A stretch of DNA of 64,000 bases, taken from positions 27,312,951-27,376,950 of the forward strand of contig CM020620.1 of the NCBI GenBank assembly GCA_009829735.1, given 5' to 3'. How positions within the stretch are numbered: the stretch's first letter is position 1; every line of letters begins with the position of its first letter. The notes under the pieces are model-generated. The model saw only the letters and a list, made by a program, of their open reading frames with translations, did no database searches and was not told the origin of the DNA. Shown one piece after another: positions 18,005 through 54,342 of the stretch. The stretch comes from Pyropia yezoensis (taxonomy: Eukaryota; Rhodophyta; Bangiophyceae; Bangiales; Bangiaceae). A program made the translations under genes and the position numbers.

Positions 18005-18463
18005 CCAACGCACGCGCGCATGCATGCGCGCGGCGCCCGAAGAACGGGCATGCATGCGCGCATGCGTGCGCGCGCGGCCCCGTCCCCCCACATCCCTCCC
18101 CGCCGCGCTCTGTGCGTGCCACCCCCCACCCTCCCTTTCCCGGCCGTGCCGCGCCCTCTCCCCCTCACCCTCTCCACGGTGTGCCGCGCCCCCTCCCTTC
18201 CCCCACCCTCCCTTTCCCGGCCGTGCCGCGCCCTCTCCCCCTCACCCTCTCCACGGTGTGCCGCGCCTTCTCCCTTCCCCAACCCTCCCTTTCCCGGTTG
18301 CGCCGCGCCCTTTCCCTCTCACCCTCTCCACGATGTGCCGCGCCCCCTCTCTTCCTTAACCCTCCCTTTCCCGGTTGCGCCGCGCCCTCTCCCCCATTCC
18401 CGACCACCCTCTCCACGGTGTGCCGCGCCCCCTCCCTTCCCCCACCCCTCCCCCCACCCCCCC
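18005..18463. repeat. Alternating purine-pyrimidine tract plus 76-bp minisatellite
   Basis: An alternating GCGCATGCATGCGCGC-type tract (about 18005-18080, with Z-DNA-forming potential) is followed by about four and a half pyrimidine-rich units. The GGTGTGCCGCGCC (or GATGTGCCGCGCC) boxes start near 18179, 18255, 18332 and 18417, giving periods of 76, 77 and 85 bp. The same two-part arrangement occurs at 42.57-42.84 kb. Confidence 0.8.
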
Positions 18464-19527
18464 CGCTGCTGGTGGCTGCCAAGGCGGCGGGTTGTGTGGT
18501 GTTGGCGGCGAACGGACCGGTGCGTTTGTTGTGGGGGGGGGGGCGAGAGGAGGGGGCGTGAGGAGGGGGCGTGAGACTGAGAGAGGGGTGGGGTGGAGGA
18601 TCGGCGGCCGGCCGGGGGGGAGCACGGGCGCGGCGGCTCTGTTGGGGGAGGGGGGCAGGTCGCGCCAGCACCGGCTGCGCGGTTTCTTTAAACCGCGCCG
18701 CCGTCGCTGCTGGTGTGCTGCCCCTAAGCCGCGCCCCCACCCCACGGCCGCCGATTCTCTGCCGTACTCTTTTCCCCTCTTCCCCCCCTCCTCTCCCTCT
18801 CCCCCTCCCCCCGCAGGTGGTCGCGGCCAAGGCGGCGGGAGGTGGTGGTTGCGGTGGTTGTAGCCGCCGGACCGGTGCGTTCGTTGTTGGGGGGGGGCGT
18901 GAGTTGGGGGGGGGGCGTGAGGAGCAGGGGGGAGAGTGTGGGAGGGATGGGGTGGCGGATCGGCGGCCGGCCGGGGGGGAGCACGGGCGCGGCGGCTCTG
19001 TTGGGGGAGGGGGGCAGGTCGCGCTAGCACCGGCGGCGCGGTTTCTTCAAGCCGCGCCGCCGCCGCTGCTGGTGTGCTGCCCTCAAGCCGCGCCCCCACC
19101 CCACGGCCGCTGATTCTCTGCCGTACCCATTTCCCCTCTTCCCCCCCACCCCCCTCCCCCTCCCCCTCCCCCCGCAGGTGGTAGCAACCAAGGCGGCGGG
19201 CTGTGTCGCGGTCGTAGCGGCCGGACCGGTGCGTTTGTTGTGGGGGGGGGGGGGCGAGAGGAGGGGGCGTGAGGAGGAGGGGGGATAGTGTGGAAGGGGT
19301 GGGGTGGAGGATCGGCGGCCGGCCGGGGGGGAGCACGGGCGCGGCGGCTCTGTTGGGGGAGGGGGGCAGGTCGCGCCAGCACCGGCGGCACGGTTTCTTT
19401 AAACCGCGCCGCCGCCGCTGCTGGTGTGCTGCCCCAAGGCCGCGCCCCTACCCCACGGCCGCCGATTCTCTGCCGTACCCTTTTCGCCTATTTCGCCCCA
19501 CCCCCCTCCCCCACCCACCCCGCGCAG
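18464..19527 (+). repeat. Tandem array of ~350-bp leader cassettes (three copies)
   Basis: AAGGCGGCGGG boxes recur at 18481, 18829, 19190 and 19540, giving units of 348-361 bp. Each unit has a short block coding about VVAAKAAGCVAVVAAGP, then GGTGCGT, a G tract, the block GGCCGGCCGGGG..GCACGGGCGCGG, a hairpin-like GGCGCGGTTTCTT(C/T)AAACCGCGCC, and a long pyrimidine tract ending CGCAG. The short block is 51 nt in the regular copies and is bordered by acceptor-like CCCCCGCAG and donor-like GGTGCGTTTG, so it could be a mini-exon. The last unit runs directly in frame into the gene starting at 19528. Confidence 0.85.
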
Positions 19528-20703
19528 GTGCTAGCGGCCAAGGCGGCGGGTTGTGTGGTGTTGGCGGTCTGTGTGGTGCGCGTGGTGGCGAGGCCGACAC
19601 CCCTTGGTGGCTCTACAGGACCGATGGCACCGGGAAAGGCCGGTGGTGGTGCCCGTGGTGGTGGCCGTGGCCGTGGTGGCGGCGGTGGTGGCGGCGGTGG
19701 TGGTGGCGGTGCTCGGGGTGGTGCCCGGGGCGGTCCCCGTAGCGGTCCCCGTGGTGGCGGTAGCCATGGTGGACGTGGCGGTGCCCGCCGTGGTGATTGT
19801 GGTGGTAGTAGCGGTGGTGGACGTGGCGGTGTCTCTAGTGGTGGCAGCATGGGTCACGGAGCCGATGATGGCGACCGAGGAGTCGCCCTGCAAAACGCTG
19901 ATTGCGACGGACGTTGTGGCGATGACGGCGGACGTCGGGATAGCCGCGGCAATGACCGACTTGGTCACGCTTTTCGCGTTGCCGGCCGGCCTCGCCAAAC
20001 GTTTCGTGACGCTGCTGATCGTGGTCGCGGTCACGCTCGTAGCACCGATCGCGGTTGACGCGGAGGCGATGACGGCGGACGTCGAGCTGATGGCGGTGGT
20101 GACCGACCTCGCACGACTTCCCGTGACACCACTGATCGTGGTCGCAGTCAGGCTGGTAGCACCGATCACGGTGGACGCGGAGGCGATGATGGCGGACGTC
20201 GGGCCGATGGCGGGGCTGACCGACCTCGCACGACTTCCCGTGACGCTACTGATCGTGGTCGCGGTCACGCTCGAAGCACCGATCGTGGTGGACGCGGAGG
20301 CGATGACGGCGGACGTCGGGCCGATGGCGGGGCTGACCGACCTCGCACGACTTCCCGTGACGCTGAGCGTGGTCGCAGTCGTAGCGCCGAGCGTGACGGT
20401 CGGGGTGACGGTCGGGGTGGCGGTGGTGGTGGCGGTGGTGGTGGCGGAGGTGGTGCATCAGCGGGAGCGGGTGGGGCGGGCCGACCAGGCGGTGGTGGAG
20501 ACGGCTACGGTCGTGGCGTCGCTGGCGGCAGTTCTGGTCGTCGAACTGGCACCGGCGGAGCGAGTGGGTCCGGCGGACCGGGCAGTGGTGGAGACGGCGG
20601 TGGCCGTGGCGTCGCTGATGACAGTAGTTCTGACAGCAACTCTCGGGCTTCGTCTGACGATGAGCAGCTGACACCAGCACCAGGGGATGTTCCAGTACCG
20701 CAT

Positions 20704-21441
20704 ATGGACAGTGGCGTGGTGACGGCGTCGGCGCCTACATGGGTCGGTCCTTCCAGCGACTACGTTATCGCGTCGAAGCGGTATGTACCGATCGAGGCCA
20801 TTCGCATTGCCCCGCGGACGGTGCGTACTATCAACCGCGGCACTGTCGACGAACAGCTGCGGTCGTACCGCGACTTTGGTTATACGACCACGTACGGAAT
20901 GATATCCGTATGCGCAGACCCAGAGTGTCCCGGGGCCGAGGATAGCTTTTTACTTGTGGACGGCGCTCATCGACTGACGGCGCTGCGGGAGCTGCACAAG
21001 GAAGGGCACGCCAACGCTGTCGGTGGGGTGCAAGTGGCGGTCATCGTTCGGCGTGACGGGCAACCCTTGACGCTCATGATGGCCCTCACGTTGGGGGTGC
21101 GCGCCAACTCGACGGCCGCCAAAGCCGAAGAGATGAGCGACGTGGACAACATCCACTTCATTACAAGCTGGCTACGAGAGTACAACGACCGCCAACCTTT
21201 GGGCAAGAAGCAGTCTCTGTTCCAGCACAGTATGTCGGACCTCATTCGCATCTTCTACAACTACATGGACAACCGCAAGCAGGACCCCATGGACGTGGAC
21301 TTTGCTCACCGTGAGTCCGATGAGGGAGACCGTGAACAAGAGGACCAAGACGACGCGACCGCCAGGGGCGGCCCGGAAACGTCCCGTATTGGCACGGCCG
21401 TCTTGCGACGCATGATCAAGATTGCCCTGATCTACATTTAG
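20704..21441 (+). CDS. ParB-like domain segment, 245 aa
   Basis: This is the best-preserved N-terminal part of the decayed gene. It starts at an in-frame ATG (MDSGVVTASAPTW), but the same phase is open for another 0.6 kb upstream as Arg/Gly-rich repeats, so this ATG is probably internal. YVPIEAIRIAPRTVRTINRG, then FLLVDGAHRLTALRELHKEG, is the classic ParB/sulfiredoxin-fold pattern (strand, then V-D-G-x-H-R-L). In this superfamily members bind or cut DNA or phosphorylate partners using nucleotides. The C-terminal part is charged. A shattered paralogue of the core motif lies at 5.2-5.5 kb. Confidence 0.6.
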   Translation: MDSGVVTASAPTWVGPSSDYVIASKRYVPIEAIRIAPRTVRTINRGTVDEQLRSYRDFGYTTTYGMISVCADPECPGAEDSFLLVDGAHRLTALRELHKEGHANAVGGVQVAVIVRRDGQPLTLMMALTLGVRANSTAAKAEEMSDVDNIHFITSWLREYNDRQPLGKKQSLFQHSMSDLIRIFYNYMDNRKQDPMDVDFAHRESDEGDREQEDQDDATARGGPETSRIGTAVLRRMIKIALIYI

Positions 21442-21959
21442 GACGAGCGGTCTGGCGAATACATTATCAAGCGCGTCACCGACTCTGTGGGCTCCCGGGG
21501 CGAGCAGGCCTTGACGACCGAGTCGTGTGCGTCTCCGGCACTTTGCACTTTGGGGGGCGTACCGCTGGAGTACTGCAATAAGGTGCGCCTGTGGATGGTC
21601 CAGGTCGGTTGGGAGTGGACGGGTCGTCGCAACGCGGGCAACAATGCCATCCGGCGGCTGACACGGGGCACCGACTCTGCGTTCTTTGCTACTTTCGTGT
21701 ATTTCGTGCGCTTCGCGATCAACGAAGCGAAGTTTCGGCGCACCCTTCTTCGCATGGCATCGGCCAAGGACCGTGCAATTGCAGAGGCGCAGGCGCTTAC
21801 GGCTGGGTGTGCCGTTTTCACACACAGAGCGCCTCTGACGGACGTTTTGAAGCAGAAGCGTCGCCGACAGAACCTCTCGCTGCTGCACGAGCTCCAGGTG
21901 TTGGTCCTCACCAAGTACAACGCTCCACAGCCACCGGCCCGAGCCGTCTTGGCTGCAGG

Positions 21960-22640
21960 TGGCGGTGGCGGCGGCAAGGGCAAGGGCAAGGGTCGACCCG
22001 GAAGCAGGGGCACGGCGGCGTCGGGTGGTGCAGAAGACCCTTTCCGGTTTGTGGAAGACCTGTCGTTTCACGAGCTCTTCTTCCCCGCGTGGGCAGCCGA
22101 GGTGCGGGCCTTCATAATCCCTCCCCCAGATGTGCAGGACCGCCCCCTCCCTACCAATTCAGCCACCGCGTCGGGTACGGCGCCGGCGGCTACCAGGGCC
22201 GGTTTACGTGAGGGGGGTGGCAATAGTGCCGTCGCGGGGACCATGTCTGATGCCGATGCCCGCATGGGTCGCCGTACCGGTGGCGATGCTGACGGCGACG
22301 GTGACGGCGACGGTGCTGGGAGCGGAGCTGGGAGCGGAGCTGGGAGCGGAGGGTGTGGAGGTGATGGTGGGGTCGGTGGCGGAGGTGATGGCGAGGTTGG
22401 AGGCGACCACGTGACCGGCACCGACGGGGCCGCTGGTGGTGACGGTGGTGACGGTGGCGACGGTGGTGACGGTGGCGACGGTGGCGACGGTGGCGACGGT
22501 GACGACAATGGCGACGGTGGCGACGGCGAGGGCGGTGGCGACGGCGGGGGCGGTGGCGACGGCGGAGGTGGTGGTGACGGTGGCGACGGCGGGGGCGGCG
22601 GGGGGCGACGGCGGGGGCGGCGGGGGTGGCGGGGGCGGTG
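21960..22640 (+). repeat. Gly/Asp-coding GGTGACGGTGGCGAC repeats
   Basis: Short GGCGACGGTGGTGAC units (strongest at 22270-22630) code runs of GDGGDGG. The reading phase changes within this G-rich stretch. Confidence 0.7.
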
Positions 22641-23293
22641 GTGACCGTGGCGACAAGGCACCCGCTGCACCTGACGTTACGGGCACAGCCGGCCCCGAGG
22701 AGCCGGCCAACGGTGGCGACGGTGCCGTCGGCGACGGGGGCGTTCGCAAGTCAAACCGACTGACGCGCCCGCGCAAACCACCTTCGGAAGAGAACGATTC
22801 TGATTCTAGTGGCGGAGCGCCTGTGCCACCGCCCAAAAAGAAGCGTCGCCGGACGGCGCCGCGAAAGAAGGGGAAGAGTGGTGCTGGTGCTCCCGGTGGC
22901 CGCGGAAGCGCTGGCAGTGGAGAGGGGGGCCGTGGACAAGGTGGCGGTCATGGGCCGTTTGCTCGCAAGCGCACTGTCACACTAGGGCGTCCAAGTGTTC
23001 CAGGAGGCTTTCAGGAAGACGGCGACCAGGCCTATGAGGATACCGTACCAGACATTCCGGACAGTATGAAGGAGGCGGCCAAGGAGAGTCGCCGGGCATT
23101 GGACCTCTCTTCTGGGCCCCGTTATACTGCTGTGCGGACGCCGCTGCCGCCCTTTGCTCTTCTGCTGCCCCTGGAGCACCAGAGCCGCGACTTTGTTCCA
23201 CGGTCCACGTGGGACGCAATGGGTAATGCGGCCGAGACGCTCATGTGTAACCGTGGCCTGGCGCTCCTTGACTAAACATACCTGGCCCTGGAC

Positions 23294-24556
23294 ATGCCCA
23301 GCGCCCCCCCCGCCGCGGTGGAGCGCGATCGACATATCCCCGACACCCGTTTGCTGCTGACCAACCTAGCGCGTATCCAGTACGGGACCGAGCTTGTCGA
23401 GCGAGGCTGGACGGTGGCCAAGCACGCGATGACCTACATGACCCGTGTGGAGGGTGCTGGTGGCGCGGAAGTCGGCGTCGACGGCGCTGCCGTATCGTCT
23501 GGATCATCCACACCCCCGACCAAGATGGACCCCGTCGGCGATTTTCTTCATTCTGTGATCAACAAGTTTCCGGGTGAAGCCGCGCTCAAGGACGACGACC
23601 CGATGTGGACGCCCATTCACAACGTCGACCTTGGCAAGGTCGACGAAACCGCAATGAAACGTGGTCAGGGGCGGCTCACCGTGCGACAGTTGGCTCTGGC
23701 CGCCAATGGGGATGATAAGGACGCGGACGACTTGTACAAGACCAAGCTGCACTGTGACATGCTGATGGCTGCTATGGCTCACCAAGTGCTGGTCGGTGCA
23801 CAGACGGCGCAGCAGCTTAATGAGCGCCCACTGGTGCGGGTGCCCAAGTCCGGCGCCCGAGTATTGCTGACCACCTCTCGTGCGGTGCGGCAACAGCCAC
23901 ACGTGGACGCCACTGTCCGTGTCGAGAAACCAGACCCCCCTACTGACCAGAATGCCGACGACAGCCGCCGAGCGCCGCTACAGACGTTTTCGCGCCCGCG
24001 CAGCCACAACTACTTTGCCATGGCGGCCGGTAAGGATGGGTTCACTGTGGTCGTGTATCCCGGCAGCTTTCACGTTGTCCATCGCCTGGAGAAGAAGCTG
24101 GATGTCCCGCATCTGGTGAGACCTGAGAAGGTGGTTATGCCTGCGGGTGGTCTCCTCGTCGTCCGCGCGGACGTTCCTCACTGTCGTGCCGGTCACGAGG
24201 ACGATCTCTGGCGACTGCGCGCCGCGCCGGCATTGCTGTCCTACTCGCACTCCATCCGGCTGCACCTCTACCTACAACGTTTTGACGAGCCGCTGCAGAA
24301 CGCCATATACAAGGTCCCTGGGTGGTTGTTTGGTGAGGGCACTGGCGCGCGCCCGAGTCTCGAGCCGAGCAAGTGCAAGAATTGCGGCGAAATGGTGTAC
24401 GCCAGTGACGTGGCAGATGCCCACCCTGCAGAATGGGCGGACGTATCAGACACCTCGTCCCGGGACAAGGATGATCAAGATGATGCAGAGGACTCCCAGC
24501 AGTCTAGCTCGTCGGATGAAGACTACGATCCTCCAGGGCCGCCGAGGGTTGTATAG
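23294..24556 (+). CDS. 2OG-Fe(II)-dioxygenase-like protein segment, 420 aa
   Basis: The frame has its own ATG (MPSAPPAAVERDRHIP), although coding-like sequence continues upstream in the same phase. The C-terminal half has the pattern of a jelly-roll 2-oxoglutarate/iron oxygenase: QQPHVDATVRV with an H-x-D pair (His codon at 23900), a strand-rich stretch GFTVVVYPGSFHVVHRL, then MPAGGLLVVRADVPHCRAG supplying the distal His (codon at 24179). A C-terminal CKNCGEMVYASDVADAH could bind zinc, and the tail is acidic. In such enzymes H-x-D...H binds iron. The substrate could be a DNA base, histone or protein; the ParB-like and methyltransferase neighbours favour nucleic acid or chromatin, which is inference. 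A cupin-type non-enzymatic role cannot be excluded. Confidence 0.55.
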   Translation: MPSAPPAAVERDRHIPDTRLLLTNLARIQYGTELVERGWTVAKHAMTYMTRVEGAGGAEVGVDGAAVSSGSSTPPTKMDPVGDFLHSVINKFPGEAALKDDDPMWTPIHNVDLGKVDETAMKRGQGRLTVRQLALAANGDDKDADDLYKTKLHCDMLMAAMAHQVLVGAQTAQQLNERPLVRVPKSGARVLLTTSRAVRQQPHVDATVRVEKPDPPTDQNADDSRRAPLQTFSRPRSHNYFAMAAGKDGFTVVVYPGSFHVVHRLEKKLDVPHLVRPEKVVMPAGGLLVVRADVPHCRAGHEDDLWRLRAAPALLSYSHSIRLHLYLQRFDEPLQNAIYKVPGWLFGEGTGARPSLEPSKCKNCGEMVYASDVADAHPAEWADVSDTSSRDKDDQDDAEDSQQSSSSDEDYDPPGPPRVV

Positions 24557-25304
24557 TACTTGACAGCGTTGTCTCTCTTGTCTACGACTGCTTTGGTAGT
24601 GTTGTTTTCTGTCGTTTGTGGAAAGGTGGAGGACGTGGCCCGTTGGCTTTATCATGTGATAATGTCTCGGCGAGGTCTTCACGCCCAGTCTCCAGGTGTC
24701 GATTTTCATAACGAGAACTCCGCACGGCTCGCCGAACTGTCCACGACACAATCACGCTGCTGATGAGACGACTCAGTCGGCGTGCGTGCCTCTTGTCTTT
24801 GGGCACAACCCCAGGGTCGCGTTATGTACATAACGCGACCACTGGACGGGCGCTCGTGCGACGGGGCAAGAAACATCTCGCAGGATTACATTTGCACAGC
24901 AAGGAAGGGTGGACAAGCCCGCCGCTGTGTCGTTGCGCAAAATCGCCCCACCCGGGCCAGACTGCATTGCAATCCCGTGAGACGCGTTATGTACATAACG
25001 CGAGCATGGGCTCGGCGCGGGTGCTCTGACACCTCGCGATGTTATGTACATAACAAACTCATGGTTCCGATGCTGTAATTCTTTTAAATGCTTGGTAGAT
25101 ATGTTGGTAATGGACAACTCGGACGAGGCGTTCCCTGTACTGGAAGCAAATTCATTTGTACTTATGATACGACCAGTGTCAGTCTCCTTGCCGGTCTCCT
25201 CTCGGCACCGTCATCGCCGTTCCTCTCCACGTCTACTGTCGGCACGGTGCGACCTTGGCTGCGTTCTCTTCCGCGGTTTGTGGCCCCTTCTCTGCGTCAC
25301 CACC
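24557..25304. promoter_or_regulatory. Intergenic region before the methyltransferase-SET gene
   Basis: This 0.75-kb region of lower GC lies between the oxygenase-like frame and the likely ATG at 25305. It carries three palindromic sites. A longer upstream start exists at 25044, but its ATG lies inside a palindrome, so I treat this whole stretch as regulatory or untranslated. Confidence 0.5.
24815..25057. promoter_or_regulatory. Three copies of the GTTATGTACATAAC palindrome
   Basis: The sites are at 24815-24840 (a perfect 26-bp palindrome), 24983-25002 (perfect 20 bp, CGCGTTATGTACATAACGCG) and 25038-25057 (perfect 14-bp core). They sit 250-490 bp upstream of the likely start of the methyltransferase-SET gene, a position that fits operators. 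Confidence 0.8.
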
Positions 25305-28300
25305 ATGCCGTCAAGTGATTCTGTAGAGCTGGTCAACCTTGTCACAATATTCGCAGAGCGTGCCGCGTTGGCGGTAGCGCGAGCAGAGACGTCTTGTTCA
25401 TCTTTGCCGTATCCTTGTGGGGTTGTCGTCTACGTCCTTGGGTCGTTGCGCGATCTGTTTGTCCTCCATTTCCTGGAGGGCAGGGGAGGGCTCTTGCTAC
25501 GCTCTGGGACATGGGCTGATCTTGTCGACTGGTGCGAGCACCATTGCCGGCCTATGGTTCACATGGATCCGGTCTATCTGTGGGACAGAGTGGGCCCACC
25601 CAGGCTACATTCCCGCACTCGCTGGCTGCACGATAGCATCGCGCACGGGGTCTATGAAGCCGTGTGGGTACTGAAGCGGTTCGTAGCAGTACCGCGTGCT
25701 TCCTTCAGTCGTGGTCGGGTACTGCGCTTTGCATCCGGGTCGCGGTGGCACACAGTGGCAACCGCGAGCGGTACTGTCCCCCGTGCTGGGGCCGAAGACC
25801 CCTCGGATGACGAGAACATGCACCGGCAGCGGAACGTTAGGCTGGTGCCCGTCCCCGCGGACGAGGATGTTGACCTGAGGGTGTGGCAACTGCTGCTTGT
25901 ACTGGGCGGCGAGGTTGATGGCGTTGCCGAGCTCTGTCGTTGGGCTTCCCGCCGGCGGTGTCAGACGGAAGAGGAGGATGCCCCAGATCGCCCTGTAAGG
26001 GGAAGTTGGCGCGCGTGTCCCGGGCTAGCGCAACACCTACTGCTTCGCGACGTGCTCGGTGTGGGTGGTCGCCGTACCCCGTCAGATACTGTGGACGACG
26101 ACGACGACAACCTGTCCACCTTTCGTGCATTTGAGCACGTTATGTCCATGTCGTGTTACTACTGTCTTGAGCAACATCTCCGGCGGGCATCCCGGTCCAC
26201 ACGGACTCCACACACGGGCGAGCAGGAACGGCAGTACGAGGGGCGTCTAGCCGGCTGTTTGGACGGCGTGGCAGCCCGAATTCGGACTATTGTTCGCGAC
26301 GTCGTTTCTGTTTGGGATGTCGTGGCGCGCAGTCGGGGTTTTCGCTCCGCCGAGGTGATGCTGTCTACGCACATGCTCTGGTGCCCGTCTGTGGGCTTCT
26401 TCGTGGCGCTGGGGCGGCCATTGGACGCAGAGGACAACCTCACATCGCCCGACGGACAGGCAGTGGACCTGCACACCAGCAAAGGGCCGGTCAGTGGTCG
26501 CACTGTCCCGGTACAACGGCAGAGCGCAGTGTCAGGCCAGCAGTCGGATGGACAAGATGATGAGCAGAGGGCGATGGGGAGGCTGACGCCGCTCGCAGAT
26601 GCTCAGCTCCGTGCGGCCGCTGGCACCATGCTTGAGCACGTACACGTGTGCACCGGCGCAGACCGCCTGGGTATTACGGTGACACGCGGCCTGCTGGGCC
26701 GCGGAGGTCGAGGGGACGCGAGCGTTGCGACCCCTGCGGGCGACGGTGACAAGGTGTCCCACACAGGACAGCGGCGTCGTACGCAGCGCAAGGTCAGGGG
26801 CTTCTTGACCGTGGAGGACTACAGGCACCCAGAGTGGGACCGCCTGTCTGGCAATGTGCCTAGAGTACTGCGCAGCGTCTTGTCGTGGCTGACTGCGTTT
26901 TCAAGCCCCCCTCCCGCTGGCCGCGGGGGTACGGCGCCTGCGTGGGCGACGGCGTCTACCGTCGCTCGTCGGGGGCTGTCACCTGCGCCCGACCGTTGTG
27001 CATCTCCCGCCAGAACGAGTGAAATGGCGTTTCGTGCTGACTGCAGAGTGGCTGGCTTGATGGCGGAGCAGCAGGTGGTGGGAGGGTGTCGATCCGGGCT
27101 GTCAATTGGCCAAGGGGCGGCGTTGCTGTGTGGGGATGGCCGGCAGGACCGGCCGTGTCAGCAGCCTCAGCGGCCCGACGGTGATGCTCCGCAGGCTGAC
27201 CTGGGGGAAGCCTGGGGCGTCCTGGATGATGCCATGGGCCAGGTATGTGCGACCTACGCTTGTGGGTTTGATGACTTGCTCTCGGCACATGCCACAAAAG
27301 TGGCGACGCGGTCCAACGCGTCTCGTCGCAGGGGTGGTGGCGGTGCGCGTGGCATCCTCGGGGACGGTAGCGGCGGGGGGGGGGCGACGACAACCTCTAC
27401 ACCGACAGGCGAGCACACCCTCCCTCCCTTTACTAGTTCTTCGGTACAGCTGGTGCTCTGTGATCCTCCGTACAACATTCGGGCGGACAGGAGCCTGGAA
27501 CAGTCTGCACATGACGTGTTTACCTCTGACGACATGCAGCGTGCCGCCCGGTTGTTCCAGACCGTTGTCCGCCCTGGCGGCCATGTGCTCATTTTTTGCT
27601 CTGCGGGTCAGCTGGGTCCGTCGATGGACACGCTCAAGGCGCTCAAGGATATGGACCCGGTGGGGAGGAAGAGCCTGTCGGCGTTTCGAGTGGACGGCCA
27701 CCCGCTGGTGGCGATCAAGGACACACACGCGGTGAACTCGCTGCGGCAGAGCACGACCAACCTGTCCAACAAGGTCGAGTTTATTGTCCACGCCACGCGC
27801 GCTGGGGTGTCCCGGGAAGAGTGCTACGCCATGGTCAACTATCGTACTTGGAACGCTGTGCCGTCGCGGTTCCTGGCACACGACAATGTCATTGACAATG
27901 TGAGACCGCCACACATTAAGGAGGTGGTGCTTCGATGGCGGGACGGGTCGCGGCAATGGATAGGACCAGAGCCAAAGTGTCTTGCCCTCATCCTCGGGCT
28001 CATATTGCGGTTTTCCCAGCCCGGGGACATCGTACTGGACACGTTTGCGGGGACGTGTGTGACGGCGGCAGCGTGTGTACGGGCCGTCCTGGGCCAGCAC
28101 CGTTTGGTCATCAGGTGCGACTCGGATTCTGTTGTCATGGACGCGAGTCGGGCCCGTCTGCGTCGGGAGATTGTCAACCAGGTGCTGGTGGGGGGCTACG
28201 AAAGCTCGGGGGTCGTCACATCCGATGTCATTGCGGCCGCACGGACAATCGAAGCCGCGTCGGTCGCTGCTGCTACAGCTAAAACAGCAGCAGGGGCGGT

Positions 28301-29632: not shown

Positions 29633-29633
<1 letters not shown>

Positions 29634-37356: not shown

Positions 37357-37658
37357 ACCTTAATAAGTTAACTTAGAGGTAAAGGCTAACTTCGATAATA
37401 TCGAAGTAAATAGGGGGCTTACACGGGAGGATGACCTCCCCAAGCCAAGACACAAAGTGAGGGAGGATGACCTCCCCAAGCAGGAACCAACCGGAAGAAG
37501 CTGGGCGGGAGGCAAGGCACCACTGAGCCAGAAGGGGTACTCCCCAGGGCAGCAAACAGAGGCAAGCAATGCCCCCAAAGGGGATGAGTTTATACTCACT
37601 ACTACCCGGCCACCATAAGGGTCACCGGGGCCCTCTCCCGCACTAACAATAGCACTCC

Positions 37659-42845: not shown

Positions 42846-43546
42846 TCCGCTGCTGGTAGCGGCCAAGGCGGCGGGCTGTGTGGCGGTTGTAGCGGCCGGA
42901 CCGGTGCGTTTGTTGTGGGGGGGGGGGGGCGAGAGGAGGGGGCGTGAGGAGGAGGGGTGAGACTGTGCGAGGGGTGGGGTGGAGGATCGGCGGCCGGCCG
43001 GGGGGGAGCACGGGCGCGGCGGCTCTGTTGGGGGAGGGGGGCAGGTCGCGCCAGCACCGGCGGCGCGGTTTCTTCAAACCGCGCCGCCGCCGCTGCTGGC
43101 GTGCTGCCCCCAAGCCGCGCCCCCACCCCACGGCCGCCGATTCTCTGCCGTGCCTTTTTCCCCTCTTCCTCCCCACCCCTCCCCCACCCACTCTCCCCGC
43201 AGGTGGTAGCGGCCAAGGCGGCGGGTTGTGTGGCGGTGGCGGCGGCGGGACCGGTGCGTTTGTTGTGGGGGGGGCGAGAGGAGGGCGCGTGAGGAGGAGG
43301 GGGGAGAGTGTGGGGGGGGCGAGGTGGATGATCGGCGGCCGGCCGGGGGGGAGCACGGGCGCGGCGGCTCTGTTGGGGGAGGGGGGCAGGTCGCGCCACC
43401 ACCGGCGGCGCGGGTTTTCAAACCGCGCCGCCGCCGCTGCTGGTGTGCCGCCCCCAAGCCGCTCCCCCACCCCACGGCCGCCGATTCTCTGCCGTACCCT
43501 TCTCCCCTCTTCCCCCCAACCCCTCCCCCTCCCCCTCCCCCCGCAG
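42846..43546 (+). repeat. Tandem array of ~350-bp leader cassettes (two copies)
   Basis: AAGGCGGCGGG boxes lie at 42865, 43215 and 43559, giving units of 350 and 344 bp. The layout is the same as at 18.46-19.53 kb: candidate 51-nt mini-exon, GGTGCGT, G tract, GC-rich block, GGCGCGGTTT..AAACCGCGCC hairpin, pyrimidine tract, CCGCAG. The final acceptor-like CCCCCCGCAG at 43537-43546 runs in frame into the helicase gene. Confidence 0.85.
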
Positions 43547-46500
43547 GTGGTAGCGGCCAAGGCGGCGGGTTGTGTGGGGTTGCTGTGTCTGGCGGCCCAG
43601 CGTGCGGGTGTTGGGGCGGCAACGAGGCCGGTGGGTCCGCTGGTGGGGATGGCGGTCACGCCACCGGGGGCTGACCCGGCTGCCGCGTCGGCGGTGGCGG
43701 TGTCGGCAGTCGAGTCAGTCGCGTCGGCGGGTACGATGCCCGCTGCGTCGGCATCGGCCGCGGCTGACGTGGTGGCCGAGCCGGCTGGTGTGGCGCCGGC
43801 GGAGCCGACGGTCTCGGCGGCAGCGGCGCCACCGGCAGAGTCGTCGGGGGCGTCGGCCGCGGCTGACGTGGTGGCCGAGCCGGCTGGTGTGGCGCCGGCG
43901 GAGCCGACGGCCTCGGCTGCAGCGGCGCCACCGACAGATTCGTTGGAGGCGGCGGCGCCACCGGGAGAGTCGTCGGCGGCGTCGGCCGCGGCAGACGTGG
44001 TGGCCGAGCCGGCTGGTGTGGCGCTGGCAGAGCCGACGGTCTCGGCTGCAGCGGCGCCACCGGCAGAGTCGTTGGAGGCGGCGTCGGCGGGCAAGTGCAC
44101 GGCAGCCTCGGTGGGTGTGGCGGCGACCGTCGAGTCGGCCGTGTCTGCGGGTATGTGGACGGCGGCATCGGGGGGTGTGGCGCCGGCGGAGCCGCCGGCC
44201 GTGTCGGCGGCTGCGATGCCGGTCGCCGAGTCGGTGGGTGTGGTGCATGAGGCGTCACAGACTGACCCGGTGGCCGTGGCGCTGGGGACCCCGGTGGTCG
44301 AGGCGGAGGTGCAAATGTCGGGCGTAGCCCAGCTGATGGGGTCACCAGTGCGGGCGGCCGATTTGTTGGAGCGGCTGAAGGAGATGGACTGTGACGTCGA
44401 CGAGATTGTGCCGGTGCGACCGGGTAGGTCTGCGCCTGTAGTGGCAGATGAGCCGGCGGAGACCATGCTGGACGTCACTCACCCGGTGGTGAGGTCCGCG
44501 GTGACGGGAGCGGCGGCCGTTGGTACCGACCCGGCGGGGGGTGCCATGGCCACGCGGGGTGACACGACGAGTGCCCTCGGACTGATGCATGCTTGTGACA
44601 CCCTCTTTGCTTGCATGGGCCCGCAGGCGACGTCCCAGGCCGACGCCTTGTGTGTCATCCAGACAACGTCGGCCCTTCTTCGTTGCGACCCGGGTGTACG
44701 GGTTGCCAAAGCCGCTGTTGCCCACCTGTCCCGTCTGTACCAGCCGCACGCGAGTAACCTGGTCGTGGTACGTGAGATGGCCACCACTGTGAGGCACGCC
44801 CTTCGCGGCCCGGGCTTGGCCAACCTGCCGCGCGCCAGCCTCGAGGCACTCGTGGACATGTTTGTCATCCCCATCATGGTTCCGAACGTGTGGCGGGCAA
44901 GAAAGGCAATCGACGACCTGTCTTTTCGGGCGGCGGCGGCGGTGGCCGCAGCGCCCACCCGGATGATGATCACCGGCGGGTCGGGGCAAAAGCGGCTGCG
45001 TCTCACCGCGCCTGGTGGTCCTGGTGGCCCCGCGGGTCCGGCTGCGCGTCTCACCGCGCCCGGTGGTCCTGGTGGCCCCGTGGGTCCGGCTGCGGCGCCG
45101 TCTCCCCGTTTTTTGGCGCTGACCCCCCCCCGCGCGGCCGGTCGTCGACCTGGGACGGACGCGCCGCCGGCGACGCTTCCCGCGCAAGGTGCGCGTGCAG
45201 CGGACGCTGGCAGTGGGGGTGGTCCGGAGCTCGCCCACTTCAGCCGCGAGATGGTCGCTGCAGTCGGCGCCGCCTGCTCCAAACTGTTGCACGATCACGG
45301 GTCGCTGGCCGATTCTCCCTCCTGGCCGCACCAAGTGACCTTTTTTCGCACCGCCTGGTCCATGGGTGTCTGGCTCCCCGAGGCCCAGAGGTTCCTACTG
45401 AGCGCGTGTAGCGCAGACACTGCCATCGTCCACCGGGCGGTGCTGGCGGGAAAGGGAGGTGCTGCGGTGGCGCAGCCACAGCCGTTGAATCTGCACACCC
45501 GCCTGTGGTCGCATTTGGTCGAGTCTGGCCGCAGCCTCTCCGCCCTGGGGCGGGGTCATGGCGACGACAAGCTTGTCCCGGAAGGCGCAGGCAGCCCCGA
45601 CGACGTGGCCCTGCTGATGTCCATGCCCGGGTCGTTGGCAATGTTGCCGACAGACTTCTTCGTCGCCTTTAAAGAGGTAGACGCATGGAAAACCGTCATA
45701 TGCGACATGACGGCGTTGCTGTTTTCGTTCGTCCTTGGCTCTCCGGGTGCTTCTACTGCTGTCGCGCCGGCTGCGGCCCTTTTTTCACGTGTTGCGAGTG
45801 TGACAGCTTCAAACACTGGCGTCGGGTAGCTGGTAGCCCCCAGTACACACTTCCGACGGACCGCCCGGCAGGTCATCCGCTGCCTGTCCGGTGTGGGTGA
45901 GCGGGGGGGCGGTGGGGCTGATTCGTGGTCCATCACGGACCTGTTGGAAGGGTGTGCACCCGTCCCGTCCGATGAGGGGTGGCGCGCTGTGTCCGCCCGC
46001 GAGACCACCAGCGCTCCCGCCCCGGGTGTGTCGACGGGTGGCCCCCCCCGGCCTTTTGACGCCCTGCGCGTCATCGACAACGCCCTGCACTTGCTGGACG
46101 TCTCGGTGCGCGCTCGCGGGGAAGATCGTGCCTGGAACGGTGTCCCCCTGCAGCAGTTTGCCGTATGTACGGCGTTTGTGCGGAGCAGCCGGCAAGTGTT
46201 GGCAGACGTGGGCGCGGGGCGCCCGCCTGCGGACTCACCCGGCGAGTCGGTTAAGCTGTTGGCGAGCGGAGCGCTCGCCCGTGTCTTGCTCCTGCTCATG
46301 CGGCTGGACATCCACCAAAAAGTGAAGCGCACACGGGGTGTCGTCCAAAGGGCCTTGGTCTCGTGCCTCATCCTACTCTCCGACCACAAGCAGTTCTGCA
46401 CGCACTTTGATACCATGGACGTGGCAAACCTGGCCCCCGTTGTCGACGAGTGGATGGAGGCACTCCCGTGGCTTTGGGAGGTTCTCATCGGGCACGTGGA

Positions 46501-49500
46501 GGCGGACCGGTCACTATACAACTGGTTGTACTTCGCGGCCGTCCATAACCTGGTGCGGACGCCTCTTGCGGTTGGCGTGTGGGCATCTCGGCGGGTGTTG
46601 GCCCAGTCAACGTTGGATTGGTTGGCGTCACCGTTGGGCCTGCGGCCCTGGGTCGGAAAAATCGGTGGTACGACCTGTTCGGGGGCCCTCCACGCGCTGA
46701 AGGGTGCGATCTGTCCGCCGGCCAGGCCTGGCAAGCGGGCCAGCCCCCTGGTCGTACGACTACGTCAGCGCATCGACGAAGTACTGAGCGGGTATGCTGT
46801 GCCAGACGACGCAGAGGCGGGTGTGGGTGCAGCAGCAGCCTCCGCCGGTGCTGGTGCGGTTGCGGCGGCTGCCGCTGGGGCGGGTGCAGCAGCTGCCGCT
46901 GGGGCGGGTGCCGGCTCAGGAGCCGAGGACGATGGACCGCCACCCGCAACGCCCGGTGTGGACAGGGCGAGCCCACCAGGTGACCCAGACGCCTTTTCCA
47001 TTGGCGACGACGCGGGGGGCGAAGTCGAATTTGTGTGCTACCTACCCGCAGTGGCGGTCCCAGACAATGTGTTGGCTGCGCAGGCAGTTTCCCCTGTCTA
47101 CAATGCGGAACCCTGCAACGTCATTGTGTTCATTGACGACGACGATAACTGGAATGACGCAGAGAACGATGACGTGACTGTCGTCAGTGTGACCCGGGTG
47201 GTCCGGGCTGGCCAACTGGTCGGGCAGCGGCGGACGTCCTCCGCCACTGGGGCGGCCGCCCATGTGGCAGTAGCTCAGAGTGCTGCCACCTCTGTCGCGA
47301 CGGTAGCTGCCACCTCCTTCGCGACGGCTGCCGTCCCAGGCGGGCCCTCTACGCCCGAGGTTGCTGTTACCGCTGCTGCTCCCGATGCTCCATCGGCGGC
47401 GGTTATTGCCACAGGCGCGGTGGATGCTGTGGCTGTGGGTGCTCCTGACGTTGGTGGGGCTCCTGCGGGCACGGCGGCCGTGGCCGACGCGGGTGTTGGC
47501 GGAGGTGCACCTGCTCAACCTGGTACTGCTGCAGCAACCGACACCGCGGGGGTAGCTGCTGTGGGCACGGCAGTGTCTCGGGGGGAGGAGCCCTCTCCCG
47601 CTTTGCCTGCAGTTGCAGACGCGGGGGCGGCTGTTGCTGGAGGTGAGACCGCCGGCGTAGGAGGCCCTTGTATCGGTTCCCCGGCTGGTGGGGGGGACGC
47701 GTCTCCCACTGCTGCACCTCTGCCCGCGGCGGCGGCGGCGGCGGGGGGGGGTGCCACCGAGGCCAGTCCTCCCACACTGTGTGGCGCGGATGGTGACCGG
47801 GTGGCGCTCGGTCAGTTGACGCTCTGTACGTCCGAGTCGGGGTGGAAGGGTGTCCCAACCCACCTGCGCCCGTCCCCGTTGTACGCAAGAGGACCTGGGG
47901 GCCACTGGTAGGCCATCGTTGTCGCCACCTTGTGCCAGCTCGCCACCCGCGGTACAGAGGCGGTGGCGCAGTCTATCGAAGGCAGCAGCAAGGGCCATGG
48001 CGGCGGCGGCGGACGCAGTGGGCGCGTGACCACATCGTCATCGTGCTCCCGCTTTGGCGTGGCTCGCATCGAGGCGCCCATCACCCTGTCGTCGCCGCAG
48101 GTGGGGGGCTCCATCCTGGACGACCCGCGGGCGTGTCGCATGTGCAACGTGCTCGTGCGTATGCCCGCCCCCCGGGGTGGTCCCCCCGGTGGGGGCGGCC
48201 GCCCTACCGGGGGATCCGCTGGGCGCCACCACCGCCGCCACAAGGACCGCGTGGGAGAGTGTCAAGTGGACCCCACAGACGCCACCCCGGGTGATTTGTG
48301 TGCCTTTTGGGTACCAGAACCCGTCGGCTCGGTGTGCAGCACCCCCGTGGACGCCGTATTTATTGGCCGCTTCGAGGACAAGGAGGGGCAACCCGGCGGG
48401 GGGGTTGGTGGCCCACCGCCCGCGGGGGCAGGCCAGTGGTGGGTGGACAAGACGCCTGGCCCGGGGCTGGACGAGCAGGACGATGACGCCGGCAGGGCGC
48501 GCCACGGTGGCGCATCCGGTCCCCCCCCGCGGTGGTGGTTTGCGGTGCGTCGTTCAGACGTGCGGCGGATGCTTCATCGCCGGACGGCAAATGTGGTCGT
48601 CACCCTGTCTCATAGTATCCTGTCGGACAGCCGCGAGTTTGGCGGCCTCGGCCACTAGGACCTTCTTCCGCCAGTCATGCAGAGGGCGCTCGCCATCCAC
48701 GCAACGCCTTCGCACGGGGGACAGCAGATGGTACCTGTACCGGCACCGGGGCCTCCCCCCCTTCAGAGTGCTCCTCCACGCTACGCCCACCTGGACGAGT
48801 TCCAGTGGCGCGCAGTCAATTGCATGCGCCAGGGGCTGTTGTCGGACGAGTGTGACGTGCAGCTGGTGACGGGCCCCCCCGGGACGGGCAAGACACGCGC
48901 CATTGTCTCCATGGTGGACATGGTACTTGGGACCCTGCCAGACGGGCGGGTCCTGCTGACGTCGCGCACCAACACGGCGTGTGACGAGCTGTTGGACGCA
49001 GTGCACGAGTTGTTCTGTCCGTCGGTGGCTGCCAGTCGACACGGCGTCGCGAAACCCGATGCCGTGACGCTCCTCCGTGTGGGTGAACCCCCTCCGGACG
49101 GCCACCGTGCCAAGACAGCGCACATTGACGCCGTGGTGGACGAGCGCCTTCCTGTCGCCTACCCGTCCGTGACAGCCGCGGTGGAAGGGGCAAGGGCACG
49201 GGTGGCCGATGTGGGCCGTCTTGTGGATCGTTCACGCGCCCAGGGTGCAGAGCCGGGCGCGGGTGGGTCACAAATCCTCCTCGAGGAATGTGCCGATGCG
49301 GAGCAAGCCCTGGAGGCTGCCTTGCGTCGCCAGCAGCGTGCGGAACGGGAGCTCCGCAAGCGAATCGTGGGCGGCGCGTCCGTCATTGTCACAACAACGT
49401 CAACGTCGGCGGGGGCGCTCGGGGGGGGTCAAGGCTTTGACGCCATTATCATTGACGAGGGTGCGGCAACAAGCGGCCCTGCGTCTGTCGCCGCCATTGT

Positions 49501-50698
49501 TCGCGCCAAGCGGGCGGGGCGTGCGGGTGGCTCGTCAGATGAAGAAGAGGACGGTCATCCGGCAGAGCGGACCAAGTACATTGTCCTTGTTGGCGACAAT
49601 GCCCAGCTGAGGCCGAGCGCCGGCATGGAGTACAGAGGCGAGACACGGCCGATGACATCAAGCGTTTTTTAGCGGCTCGCCAGGTTTCTGTCCGCTTGCG
49701 TCATCCTCTCCGTGCAGTACCGCATGCGGCCGCTGTTATGGTCCCTCCTCCGAGAAGTCTTTTACCGGCACATTGGCGTATGGTCGGACGGGCGCGGGCC
49801 CAAGGCCCGCCATGAGGAGGGGTTTGGAACACCCGCGTGGCTAAACCATCCGAGTCGGCGTATTCGCTTTGGAGGGCTGCAAGTGACAGACACTTCCCGC
49901 CTACCGGCCAACGATCGGGCGCACAAGTCGGGTTCCACCACCTCCAACAACAAGAGCCTGATCAACGTTGCAGAGCTTCGGTTGGTCGAGATGGCTCTTA
50001 CGGATCTCCTGCTGGCGTGGGCGACGTCCAGCGGGGCTACCGAGCTGAAGATGATGCTCATCACCCCGTACACTGCGCAGCGGAACAAGCTGAATGAAAT
50101 GGTGCAGTCGATGAGAGACAGCAGGCGGCTGCCCCGCAGACCATGTGCCGACGTCAGGGTGTCCACCGTGGATGGCTGCCAAGGCGCTTCTGTGGACTGT
50201 GTCATACTCTCCCTCGTGCGGTCAGAGCCTGGGGCGCCACCTGGCGGGAGCACCGACTTTTTGTCCGACGAGCGGCGCGTGAACGTCATGATGTCGCGGG
50301 CACAGAGCCATCTCCACGTGATTGGTGACATGGACTACCTTTCAAGCTCTGGGGGTGTGTGGAAGAGCTGGTGGGACAACGTCCGCCATAGGTGGAGCCG
50401 TCCAGATCGACGGGACCGCGAGCACATCAACATTGTGGCTCGCGACAGGGTGTTCTATTCGGGAGTATGTGGGGGGGGGGGGGGGGGGGGCGGGGCAGGT
50501 GGAAGGGGGGTGGGACTGTACGGCACCCCCTCTTTTTTATGCTTTGAAGGTGTCGCTGGTCATGTGGTGGCCGGTTGTTGCGTGACATGTTGGTGGAGGT
50601 TCACTTGGCAAGGCACTCTTGTTGGGCGATGGGGAAGGGGGGGGGGGGGGGGGTGTGGGGGGGGGAGCGGGCGTGTGTGGCCCATGGTACCACCATAA
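43547..50698 (+). pseudogene. Giant Sen1/Upf1-like SF1 helicase frame with in-frame amber codons
   Basis: A single phase runs for 2384 codons from the last leader cassette (first ATG 43649, MAVTPPGADPAAASAVAV). The order is: Ala/Pro repeats of 33-43 codons (ADVVAEPAGVAPAEP); helical regions (44.3-45.8 and 45.9-46.8 kb); Ala-rich linkers; and a superfamily-1 helicase core (48.8-50.4 kb). Total size and N-terminal helical content resemble Sen1/senataxin, nuclear RNA:DNA helicases that resolve R-loops; Upf1-like is the alternative. The phase is broken only by four in-frame TAG codons, with no frameshift. One of these falls inside the core between conserved blocks, where relatives have a Glu/Gln. 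It may be a young pseudogene or a gene read through at amber codons. Confidence 0.7.
48677..50460 (+). other. Superfamily-1 (Upf1/Sen1-type) helicase core
   Basis: The motifs appear in order: Q-like region FQWRAVNCMRQGL; motif I TGPPGTGKTRAI; Ia LLTSRTNTACDEL; II IIIDEGAATSGPAS (DEGA in place of DEAA/DEAS); III VLVGDNAQLRPSA; IV VQYRMRPLLWSLL; V VSTVDGCQGASVDCVILSLV; VI NVMMSRAQSHLHVIGD. All catalytic motifs for ATP binding and strand separation are present. The sequence after this core is Gly-rich and probably not part of the fold. Confidence 0.88.
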
Positions 50699-50712
50699 GT
50701 CTTGAGTCACGC

Positions 50713-51090
50713 CATGTTGTGTGCATAACGCAACAGATGGGTACGTTCCATGGTCGGATGTTGGCCGGGACTTGGCCAAGGCAGACCGAGTCGCGTTATG
50801 TACATAACGCGTCTGTCGAGCACCTGGCATCGTCCCAACAGATTGCCGAGGCTGACCGTGACGCGTTATGTACATAACGCGTGAGGTGAGCCTTTTTGAG
50901 AATCTGGTAGGTGTGGTATGGTAGACAGACCGTGGCGCGTTATGTACATAACGCTCTTCTGATGTTTGTCGAGATAGTTCGCCAGAGCTGATCGTGTCGC
51001 GTTGTGTACATAACGCGGCAGATGAGCCATTGGAGAATCTGGGACTTGTGACTTGTCAGATGGACCGTGGGGCGTTATGTACATAACGCT
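50713..51090. promoter_or_regulatory. Iteron-like array of six CGCGTTATGTACATAACGCG palindromes
   Basis: The sites are at 50713-50732 (degenerate), 50792-50811, 50862-50881, 50936-50955, 50998-51017 and 51071-51090, spaced 62-79 bp apart. Intervening DNA also repeats: a block of about 135 bp holding two sites is duplicated, with ACCGTGG before and CTCTTC(T/G)GAT(G/C)TTTGTCGAGAT after the palindrome. The array lies directly behind the helicase frame. It may be a protein-binding array such as an operator cluster, replication iterons or a parS-like site; function is inference. Confidence 0.85.
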
Positions 51091-52425: not shown

Positions 52426-54342
52426 GTGGCCGCGGCGCTCCTGCGTGGGGCAGGCGTCCAAGACGGGGTGGCGGCAGCCGCAACCACGCCCGAAGGCCAC
52501 CCACCAAGGGGGTCTAGGAAGCGGGCGGCGGCGGGCGCCCCGGCTGCAGGGGCGGGAACAGGGGGGGGGCGTTCCAAGCGACAAGCGCGGCGGTCGTCAC
52601 CCGAGGGCAGCGACGATGATGCGGCGGCGGTGGCTCCGGCAGCGGCGGGTGGGACGACGCCCCCCGAGGCAAAGACCTACCAGACGGCGAGCCCCGGCGG
52701 CGGCCACGGGCGCGTGCGGCGTGGGCCGCAGGCGTCCATCCGACGGGCCCGCCGCACCCAGCTCGCCACCTCGGTGCGGCGTGTGCTGCGTCGCACGCGC
52801 GTGTCCCGGTGGACTGTGCCCCGTCACGAGGCAGAAAAGGTGGCACGGTGGCTGGTGGACCCCACTGCCGCGGCGGGCGACAGTGCCAGCGGCACCACCC
52901 CAGACGCGCCGCTACAGGACCGGGTGGACGCGCTGCCCCGGCGCAAGGGGTGTCGTCGACTGGCACCCGTCTCCGGCCTTCGCTACAGCCCGAGTGCCGC
53001 CTACTTTCGCGAGGCCAGCGGCGGTAACTTTTTGGCCCGTGCGTGGAAGCAGTGGCGGGCACGCAGAGGTACTGAGGCGGGACCGGTGGCGGCGGCGGTG
53101 GCGGGACTGGTGGCGGCGGCGGGTGACGGAGGCGGCGTCGCTGGCCACCTACCACCCGTCGACTTGGCAGCAGCACACGGCACGATGCGTACCGGCGACG
53201 ACGGCAAGCACCTGCAGGCAACGCTCGAGTGGGCCGCCCGTCGCGACACGGCCGCGTACGGCCAGCGATTTGGCGCGCAAGCCACGCGACACCTGCGGGC
53301 GGCGCGTGTGCACAAGTCCATCCAACGCGGTCGCTTTGCTGCCTCGGTGGCGCGGGACCTGACCGGCGGCCTCCTTCGCCAGGTCCGTGGCGGCGGCGCG
53401 GTCGTCGTGGCCATGGGCACCGCGCGCGTGCGCGGGGGGGACGCCTGGCTCCGCCGCCACCTCCGACGGCTGTGCTGGTTTGTCGACCAGGACGAGTTCA
53501 ACACGAGCAAGGCGTGCTCCGAGTGTCACGACAAGATGGTGCTCATCTACTCGACGGGCAACTCCCCCCCCAAGATTCCAGGAGAGCTGTACGGGCCGCC
53601 GGCCGGCCCTCTGCCGTCGACACGGCGTGTGCGGATGGCGGCTGGCTCCCGTCGGGGGCGGCCAAAGCGGGCCCTCCCCTCTGCTACCCACGTGACGCGC
53701 CGAGGGCCGGACCCCGACGCCTACCGGGCGGCCGTCCGAGCCACTGCCCGCGCTGCTGCTGTGGCGCGGCGCGCGGCCGCGCTGGCCGCCTGTGCCGTCG
53801 AGGACCGCGCCGTCTATGCCGACCCGAGGCGGCTGAGCGTGTGGGCGGCCAAGGGCTGCTACACGTGCTCTCTCGCGGCCCCACAAGGCCGCGGTCATCC
53901 AGCGCCACACCCGCCCGTGATTCGCAATCGGGACGACGTTGCGGCCCGCAACATGGCGTGGGTGGCCGCTCGTCGTCTAACGGGTACCAACGTGTGGCCT
54001 TTCAAGCGCCCGTTTGGTATGAGGTGGGCCTGGACGGCCAAGCGTCCTCCAAGTGGTGTTCCCGTCCCGCCTGTACGTCGCACCCGTGCGACTACGCGGG
54101 TCGATGTATGGCCCGTACTGGCTGCAGTGGACACTGTCGTCGACGGTGGTGGTGGTGGTGGTGGTGGTGGTGGTAGGGGGGCTGTCGACGGCGACGCGAC
54201 GGCGGCGTCCTGTACGACGGGACGCGGTGCTCCTGGTGGGGAACGGGTGGCGGCGGCCGGCAGTTCCATGGACGGGGTACGTCGGGCGGAGGCGGGGGCG
54301 ACAGACGCGCCCCGTGGTCTGGTGGACACTGCAAGACGCTAA
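52426..54342 (+). CDS. Fanzor/TnpB-like RNA-guided nuclease, probably incomplete N terminus
   Basis: The C-terminal half has the eukaryotic TnpB (Fanzor) signature. VVVAMGTARVRGG precedes CWFVDQDEFNTSKACSECHD; a zinc ribbon has Cys pairs CSEC (codons from 53515) and CYTC (near 53857); and RNRDDVAARNMAWVA (about 53923-53965) gives the RuvC-III Asp. Upstream, YSPSAAYFREASG and KQWRAR match the region after RuvC-I, but a canonical RuvC-I motif is not clear. The frame has no ATG before about 53184 and begins at 52426 only by virtue of a GTG, so a 5' exon or the N terminus is missing. The C terminus ends in a Gly tract. Fanzors use a guide RNA to cut DNA and ride on diverse eukaryotic transposons and viruses. 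Confidence 0.72.
   Translation: MAAALLRGAGVQDGVAAAATTPEGHPPRGSRKRAAAGAPAAGAGTGGGRSKRQARRSSPEGSDDDAAAVAPAAAGGTTPPEAKTYQTASPGGGHGRVRRGPQASIRRARRTQLATSVRRVLRRTRVSRWTVPRHEAEKVARWLVDPTAAAGDSASGTTPDAPLQDRVDALPRRKGCRRLAPVSGLRYSPSAAYFREASGGNFLARAWKQWRARRGTEAGPVAAAVAGLVAAAGDGGGVAGHLPPVDLAAAHGTMRTGDDGKHLQATLEWAARRDTAAYGQRFGAQATRHLRAARVHKSIQRGRFAASVARDLTGGLLRQVRGGGAVVVAMGTARVRGGDAWLRRHLRRLCWFVDQDEFNTSKACSECHDKMVLIYSTGNSPPKIPGELYGPPAGPLPSTRRVRMAAGSRRGRPKRALPSATHVTRRGPDPDAYRAAVRATARAAAVARRAAALAACAVEDRAVYADPRRLSVWAAKGCYTCSLAAPQGRGHPAPHPPVIRNRDDVAARNMAWVAARRLTGTNVWPFKRPFGMRWAWTAKRPPSGVPVPPVRRTRATTRVDVWPVLAAVDTVVDGGGGGGGGGGRGAVDGDATAASCTTGRGAPGGERVAAAGSSMDGVRRAEAGATDAPRGLVDTARR

Follow-up and report, generated by a model that had tools for sequence, protein, structure and literature searches.

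The window analysed here is a 64,000-nucleotide stretch of the genome of the red alga Pyropia yezoensis (C3:27,312,951–27,376,950; the genome surveyed comprises 107.5 Mb in 11 contigs), and its positions 1–54,524 on the plus strand are a decayed copy of a family of giant multi-gene transposons. Along this copy lie a ParB/2OG-like gene, a DNA methyltransferase–SET gene, a Sen1/Upf1-like helicase gene and what is left of a Fanzor-like nuclease gene, all read in the plus direction and accompanied by leader cassettes and clusters of a palindrome. The original prediction, made from the letters of the window only, had assigned these genes to one mobile element at 18,005–54,342. For comparison we used three further copies, A, B and C, all situated on contig C1 and each retrieved as pieces; Pfam scans covered a selection of open reading frames (ORFs) from the window and the copies, including selected ORFs of the left arm.

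Genes and repeats of the element

The 1,515-residue ORF at 25,044–29,591 (+), the frame of which is open in the window copy, had been predicted to encode a beta-group DNA methyltransferase fused to a SET domain, and this is borne out by Pfam: N6_N4_Mtase (E 2.5e-10) and SET (E 3.1e-5, 24.8 bits against a cut-off of 22.4) are found in the one ORF, the latter on the whole-protein score only, with no single stretch passing alone. The homologue alignment points to 25,305 as the likely start of the gene. Among 12 homologues the D-P-P columns and the later G-T columns are invariant and F nearly so, while Y is the majority residue only, and DPPY stands ahead of FxGxG as in the beta group. The methyltransferase profile is closest to the adenine methylases DpnA, RsrI and CcrM, and the SET part to KMT2C and SETD8. 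A protein search with the methyltransferase (8000 candidates scored) returned 23 relatives, three of them from P. yezoensis and one from P. vietnamensis; in the 16 of these that were scanned, SET scored over the cut-off in six, weakly in four and not at all in the other six.

The ParB/2OG-like gene (19,624–24,556, +) contains the ParB domain at 20,704–21,441 and the 2OG-like part at 23,294–24,556. It is broken in the window copy by in-frame stops and a frameshift, and overlapping open frames of several copies, taken together, suggest that it was a single long frame, which is complete in none of the retrieved pieces. The ParB-like assignment comes from another copy, 95% identical in this domain, which gives a weak match to phrog_1033 (‘ParB-like partition protein’, E 0.001) and a DGQHR match below the cut-off (E 0.009), whereas Pfam is blank for the window’s own ORF at 20,704–21,441. 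A protein search with the ParB gene (8000 candidates scored), which was probably swamped by glycine-rich stretches, gave no match at E 0.001. The hallmark of 2OG-Fe(II) oxygenases is a double-stranded beta-helix with the HxD...H...R residues. The letters HxD, distal H and R are kept in all four copies, but profile searches including Pfam found no oxygenase match, and structure models of this domain from three sequences had a mean predicted local distance difference test (pLDDT) score of 28, too poor to use, so that of the predicted oxygenase-like domain the motif letters are what stands.

The Sen1/Upf1-like helicase gene (42,893–50,698, +) shows both AAA_11 and AAA_12 at 48,677–50,698 in Pfam, in agreement with its predicted identity. 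In-frame stops break it in the window copy; in copy C the frame is open over 1,779 residues, and the nearest solved chains of that frame include UPF1, NAM7, DNA2 and SEN1.

At the right of the element the Fanzor-like gene (52,426–54,342, +) retains its C-terminal part; copy C has about 3.3 kb more, which include the DPG and TDG part. DPG is not found in the window copy, whose DPG-bearing part is lost. In copy C the open frame is 1,455 residues long, with TDG at 693, DPG at 765, CxxC at 1,174 and NRD at 1,311. Fanzors have been described as having a DPG motif with an alternative glutamate for their molecular fingerprint, and TDG is said to characterise Fanzor1 (PMC10711439). DPG, as the RuvC-I motif, is found at residue 765 in copy C and 719 in the homologue P0001, the alternative glutamate stands six residues before the first CxxC (E-FNTSQA-CSEC in copy C, with the same spacing in P0001), and TDG lies 72 residues ahead of DPG in copy C and 74 in P0001, probably within a WED domain. 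The published spacing is not kept, as DPG and the glutamate are about 400 residues apart instead of 120–160, and the second CxxC, absent from P0001, follows about 110 residues on instead of 12–18 (PMC10711439). Cas12f1-like_TNB matches the copy C protein below the Pfam cut-off (E 0.014), no solved PDB structure was matched by sequence, and structure models of the C-terminal part (three sequences, mean pLDDT 32) were too poor to use. The predicted Fanzor-like nuclease is therefore recognisable by its fingerprint in copy C, while the window copy keeps only the C-terminal portion of it.

Two repeated signals had been predicted to unite most of these genes. The palindrome GTTATGTACATAAC occurs at nine exact sites in the window, two of them to the left of the block as first delimited, and clusters in the family, although the full 20-bp CGCG...CGCG form is found at only four of the nine. 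Two sites are in the left arm (4,069–4,409, at 4,069 and 4,396), the same pair being present in copy C at 32,647,366 and 32,647,692; three lie between the ParB/2OG and methyltransferase genes (24,821–25,054), and a cluster of four exact and two near sites is found between the helicase and Fanzor-like genes (50,716–51,087). Genome-wide, CGTTATGTACATAAC has 198 matches per strand versus 0 for the reversed pattern. Locations were checked for 60 distinct sites in 26 clusters among the matches listed, all on C1: 58 of these 60 have an element mark at 40 kb or less, and the other two have one at 48 kb; the ground lying that close (40 kb) to such marks makes up 8.5% of C1. A natural guess is that the palindrome is a putative binding site for the ParB-like protein. 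The leader cassettes are less general than had been claimed. Arrays of tandem ~350-bp units precede the ParB gene (18,438–19,550, +, with donor-like GTGCGT and acceptor-like CCCGCAG) and the helicase gene (42,824–43,582, +), and a diverged cassette is present on the minus strand near 1,933–2,239, but none was found before the methyltransferase or the Fanzor-like gene, so that ‘most genes’ was too strong.

Copies, ends and mode of insertion

Copies A, B and C align to the window at about 95% identity across most of its length, with 1,374 substitutions in 33,918 aligned bases, 1,730 in 39,335 and 1,437 in 36,366 (parts of a nested retrotransposon included). The homology starts from base 1 and ends by 54,525, copy C being without part of the middle. 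A genome search with the ParB domain gave 63 matches, of which 20, counting the window’s own, are full-length at 88–100% identity, the remainder being fragments and distant relatives, many at ~35% identity. The helicase part gave 100 matches, 47 of them (again with the window’s own) covering at least 281 of the 331 residues with an identity of 80% or higher. On comparison by hand, 18 of the 20 ParB copies have a helicase match, in some cases only a partial one, on the same strand 11–47 kb downstream; the two without are C1:43,435,803 and C3:8,576,914. Since copies exist at many sites, with collinear gene order and common ends, the prediction that the genes of this block form one mobile element is strongly supported, and the opposite picture of genes residing at conserved, separate loci finds no support within the P. 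yezoensis genome.

The block is nevertheless interrupted by two unrelated elements. A hAT transposon (10,659–17,917, −; Dimer_Tnp_hAT, transposase ORF 14,541–17,192), which is not part of the giant element, is flanked by the 8-bp duplication GTACGTAC; it is missing from copies A and B, and copy C is without the region of the hAT site. Its transposase was considered as the engine of the giant element and ruled out, because copies A and B lack it. The second, overlooked in the original description, is a 10.6-kb long terminal repeat (LTR) retrotransposon (30,235–40,803, +) with a CAGGT duplication and, at 33–37 kb, reverse transcriptase, RNase H and integrase (Pfam). The original description had listed neither these domains nor that of the hAT element. 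Its 363-bp LTRs differ by one mismatch, and therefore it is recent; as copies A, B and C do not have it at the corresponding site, it was rejected as a part of the giant element. It cuts the start of a minus-strand gene of ~350–400 residues (40,804–41,601, −) to which no family is assigned and which is open in B and C. Nesting of this kind speaks for a chance cluster of unrelated transposons; that explanation is, however, already refuted by collinear copies elsewhere without the nested elements, as well as by the pairing of 18 of 20 ParB copies with a helicase, and we give it almost no credence. What had been described as a single block is one element, in a copy that is mostly broken and carries two insertions.

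The left end common to A, B and C is AGTTATCC, and the right end common to the window and copy C is CCGATAG. In the genome search a left-end 28-mer (up to 3 mismatches) was found at 44 places and a second left-end pattern at 46, while a right-end 26-mer (up to 2 mismatches) was found at 76, 48 of them exact; all reversed controls gave 0. For 27 of the 46 left ends a same-strand right end lies no more than 150 kb away, at spans of 24.8 to 121 kb. Fourteen of these 27 pairs measure 45–60 kb; in the longer ones the two ends may come from different copies. Right ends outnumber left ends (76 vs 46), and possible reasons for this surplus are truncation, the sensitivity of the patterns or right ends that stand alone, like the ‘ghost loci’ described for Fanzors (PMC10432273).

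The window copy ends on the right at 54,524, and the ribosomal protein L10 gene then starts at 54,768, so the predicted boundary of 54,342 was close. The predicted left boundary, 18,005, was wrong: it sits some 90 bases beyond the point where the nested hAT ends on the right, and the element reaches window base 1. As homology runs from base 1 and the left ends of A, B and C are situated ~16, 10 and 7 kb beyond the point matching it, the left end of the window copy appears to lie to the left of the window; it is absent among the left ends found by the genome pattern search. Overall, the original observation holds in substance, with wrong boundaries and for an element larger than claimed.

The window copy terminates in AGCT, where most copies have AGTT. 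AGTT is present at 43 of the 46 left ends, and G followed by TT at 68 of the 76 right ends, the next base being A in 34, C in 20, G in 7 and T in 7. The joined flanks of copy C match their own place only and overlap only in AGTTA; outside AGTT they agree in at most one base (left ...AA, right AC...), and so there is no longer target duplication at this copy. With copy C as the one copy having both flanks, insertion fits short-core recombination better than a random duplicated target. We propose that insertion would proceed by recombination joining short AGTT sites, and that the enzyme either escapes recognition so far or is supplied in trans.

A different view is that this is a giant DDE-type transposon (EnSpm, Sola or KDZ) with passive cargo genes, the transposase of which is too diverged, encoded in an unscanned ORF or provided in trans. 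The hallmark of EnSpm/CACTA elements is CACTA-type ends plus a short target duplication. The ends found here, AGTTATCC and CGATAGTT, are not CACTA-like, copy C is without a longer duplication outside AGTT, and an AGTT that is constant and not palindromic does not resemble the duplication of a random target. Yet the two ends of copy C do share an inverted subterminal motif, the score of which is equalled by only 4 of 1000 shuffles. Giant KDZ, EnSpm and Sola-1 elements are also reported in Ectocarpus, where several giant families have no transposase-like gene, and the same paper mentions giant EnSpm elements from red algae (PMC12477816). We regard the DDE-type explanation as possible but unlikely.

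Proposed roles of the gene set

We return to the AGTT recombination proposed above and consider it jointly with what the genes may do. The explanation as a whole, of a decayed copy of a giant multi-gene family with proposed insertion by such recombination and the putative roles set out here, is probable in our opinion. The ParB-like protein would bind the palindromes and gather element DNA, and the methyltransferase–SET protein would then mark this DNA and its nucleosomes, either for evasion of silencing or for distinction between self and host; such putative marking of its own DNA and chromatin is plausible. The Fanzor-like nuclease, guided by an RNA from the right end, may cut sites that are empty or from which the element has been excised, and so bring about its retention or copying, with the helicase possibly assisting in replication or transcript handling. 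A more elaborate scheme, in which ParB on the element’s own palindromes would recruit an adenine-methyltransferase–SET writer together with an oxygenase eraser, while a nuclease programmed by the right end would home the element by non-DDE recombination at AGTT, seems to us rather improbable.

The possible guide-RNA region (54,343–54,524, +) adjoins the Fanzor-like stop codon and ends in AGCT. The 183-bp stretch that runs from the stop codon as far as CCGATAG contains one mismatch between the window and copy C, compared with a mean of 7.0 per equal piece, and only 1 of 152 equal pieces has one mismatch or fewer.

Several observations weigh against this picture. The left end is conserved too, as A, B and C differ there by 2 to 5 mismatches over 190 bp, and therefore conservation of the right end need not mean RNA and may instead reflect end function; the right-end RNA fold is only slightly more favourable than that of shuffled sequences (z −1.5 and −1.8). 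The statement that there is no target duplication comes from a single copy with both flanks, copy C. No transposase or recombinase of the element was recognised in the Pfam scans of selected ORFs, including the left-arm selection. Tyrosine recombinase (PF00589) has 13 genome matches; the one nearest to a marked end or gene is 47.7 kb off and the rest are ~90 kb or more away, though more diverged recombinases may escape such a search. The serine recombinase family has 0 genome matches. Codon position gives a weak signal: it is missing over most of the element, antisense frames reach z 2.9, and in copy C the main frame of the methyltransferase (L045:4477–7284) stays below z 1.5.

The excess of third-codon-position substitutions is strong in the nested retrotransposon and small in the element genes (helicase z 2.0–3.2, Fanzor-like 2.9, 2OG part 3.2), and the weakness of this signal suggests that most copies decay neutrally after insertion. 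The window copy has a broken ParB/2OG gene and helicase, a Fanzor-like gene without its first part and an open methyltransferase–SET frame; longer open frames for element genes are present in other copies.

Giant viruses, too, have methyltransferase, helicase and 2OG-like genes, and this, together with the large size of the element, speaks for a large DNA virus that became endogenous, or for what remains of one. Fanzor proteins are found in large double-stranded DNA viruses as well (PMC3627910), and the phage spike domain PRD1_P5_C overlaps the helicase below the cut-off (E 0.0022). Such an origin appears very improbable to us, given defined ends at many dispersed sites and the absence of capsid, packaging or DNA-directed DNA polymerase domains over the cut-off in the part of the ORFs scanned with Pfam. 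In IMG/VR, pattern scans, by which only close relatives can be detected, gave no relative of the methyltransferase or the Fanzor-like protein, and phage records held no close relative of the latter.

The left arm contributes a RING-H2 protein (8,037–9,179, +, in an open frame of 7,980–9,179; zf-RING_2 E 5.3e-8, over the cut-off) with the stretch PIIDLTDDT. We take this stretch to resemble a SUMO-interaction motif and the protein to be reminiscent of SUMO-targeted ubiquitin ligases, in which case it could act on SUMO-dependent silencing. In the selection of left-arm ORFs scanned, no other Pfam family scored over the cut-off. A short tandem ParB-like motif, DHAFPVVDGSHRLYTLRRML, is seen at 5,052–5,453 in a 133-residue open frame. 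Two similar-looking small proteins are encoded on opposite strands of one left-arm piece (L043:2,647–3,393, +, and L043:4,378–5,205, −); neither matches a family over the cut-off, a TFIIB repeat reaching E 0.05 for one of them.

Elsewhere in the genome, distant ParB-like copies (32–46% identity) are located near contig ends (C1 43.53–43.58 Mb, C3 29.30–29.38 Mb, C2 24,973 and 34,190,026, C7 9,850), several in open frames of more than 1,500 residues, and others equally distant sit inside chromosomes; those at contig ends are perhaps a second, subtelomeric family. Four of the tyrosine-recombinase matches are spaced at ~4,959 bases in C1:39,063,250–39,078,480, probably a tandem array of another element.

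Comparison with known systems

For the most part it is not settled how eukaryotic Fanzor nucleases and transposon-borne DNA methyltransferases serve their elements, and the Pyropia element, abundant in a red alga under cultivation, carries genes of both kinds. Since its ends are defined, its palindrome clusters in the family and a guide-RNA region may be present, it allows direct tests of binding, of adenine methylation and of guiding by RNA; if the proposal is true, giant transposons can carry their own chromatin writers. In our searches of open-licence papers we did not find the combination of ParB and methyltransferase with SET, a helicase and a right-end Fanzor-like nuclease.

Starships carry large cargo, and both Starships and Cryptons have short direct repeats at their ends and a tyrosine recombinase. 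The Pyropia element shares the large cargo with Starships and the short direct end repeats with both, but has no PF00589-kind tyrosine recombinase near a marked copy. Like Fanzor1 elements (PMC3627910, PMC10711439, PMC10432273), it has DPG with the alternative glutamate, TDG and a nuclease gene adjoining the right end; unlike them, the 1,455-residue frame contains a CCHC knuckle and long insertions, which separate the RuvC parts and also interrupt the zinc finger, and is housed inside a giant element. Several accessory genes and a red-algal host are shared with the giant EnSpm elements to which PMC12477816 refers, but the ends in Pyropia are not CACTA-like.

A further parallel is Sola1-1_Ec32 of Ectocarpus, a 21.5-kb element with a ParB-like domain and an N4C/N6A-type methyltransferase in one 1,104-residue protein beside a transposase; its authors suggest that ParB/methyltransferase proteins may bind and modify their own transposon (PMC12477816). 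Both are giant algal DNA transposons with a ParB-like domain and a DNA methyltransferase. The Pyropia element differs in its length (45–60 kb in 14 of 27 end pairs), in having no transposase recognised among the scanned ORFs and in the arrangement of its domains, as ParB accompanies the 2OG-like part and the methyltransferase is fused to SET, with the helicase and Fanzor-like genes added. In its general kind the element is thus already known, belonging with the giant algal transposons that carry ParB–methyltransferase cargo (PMC12477816).

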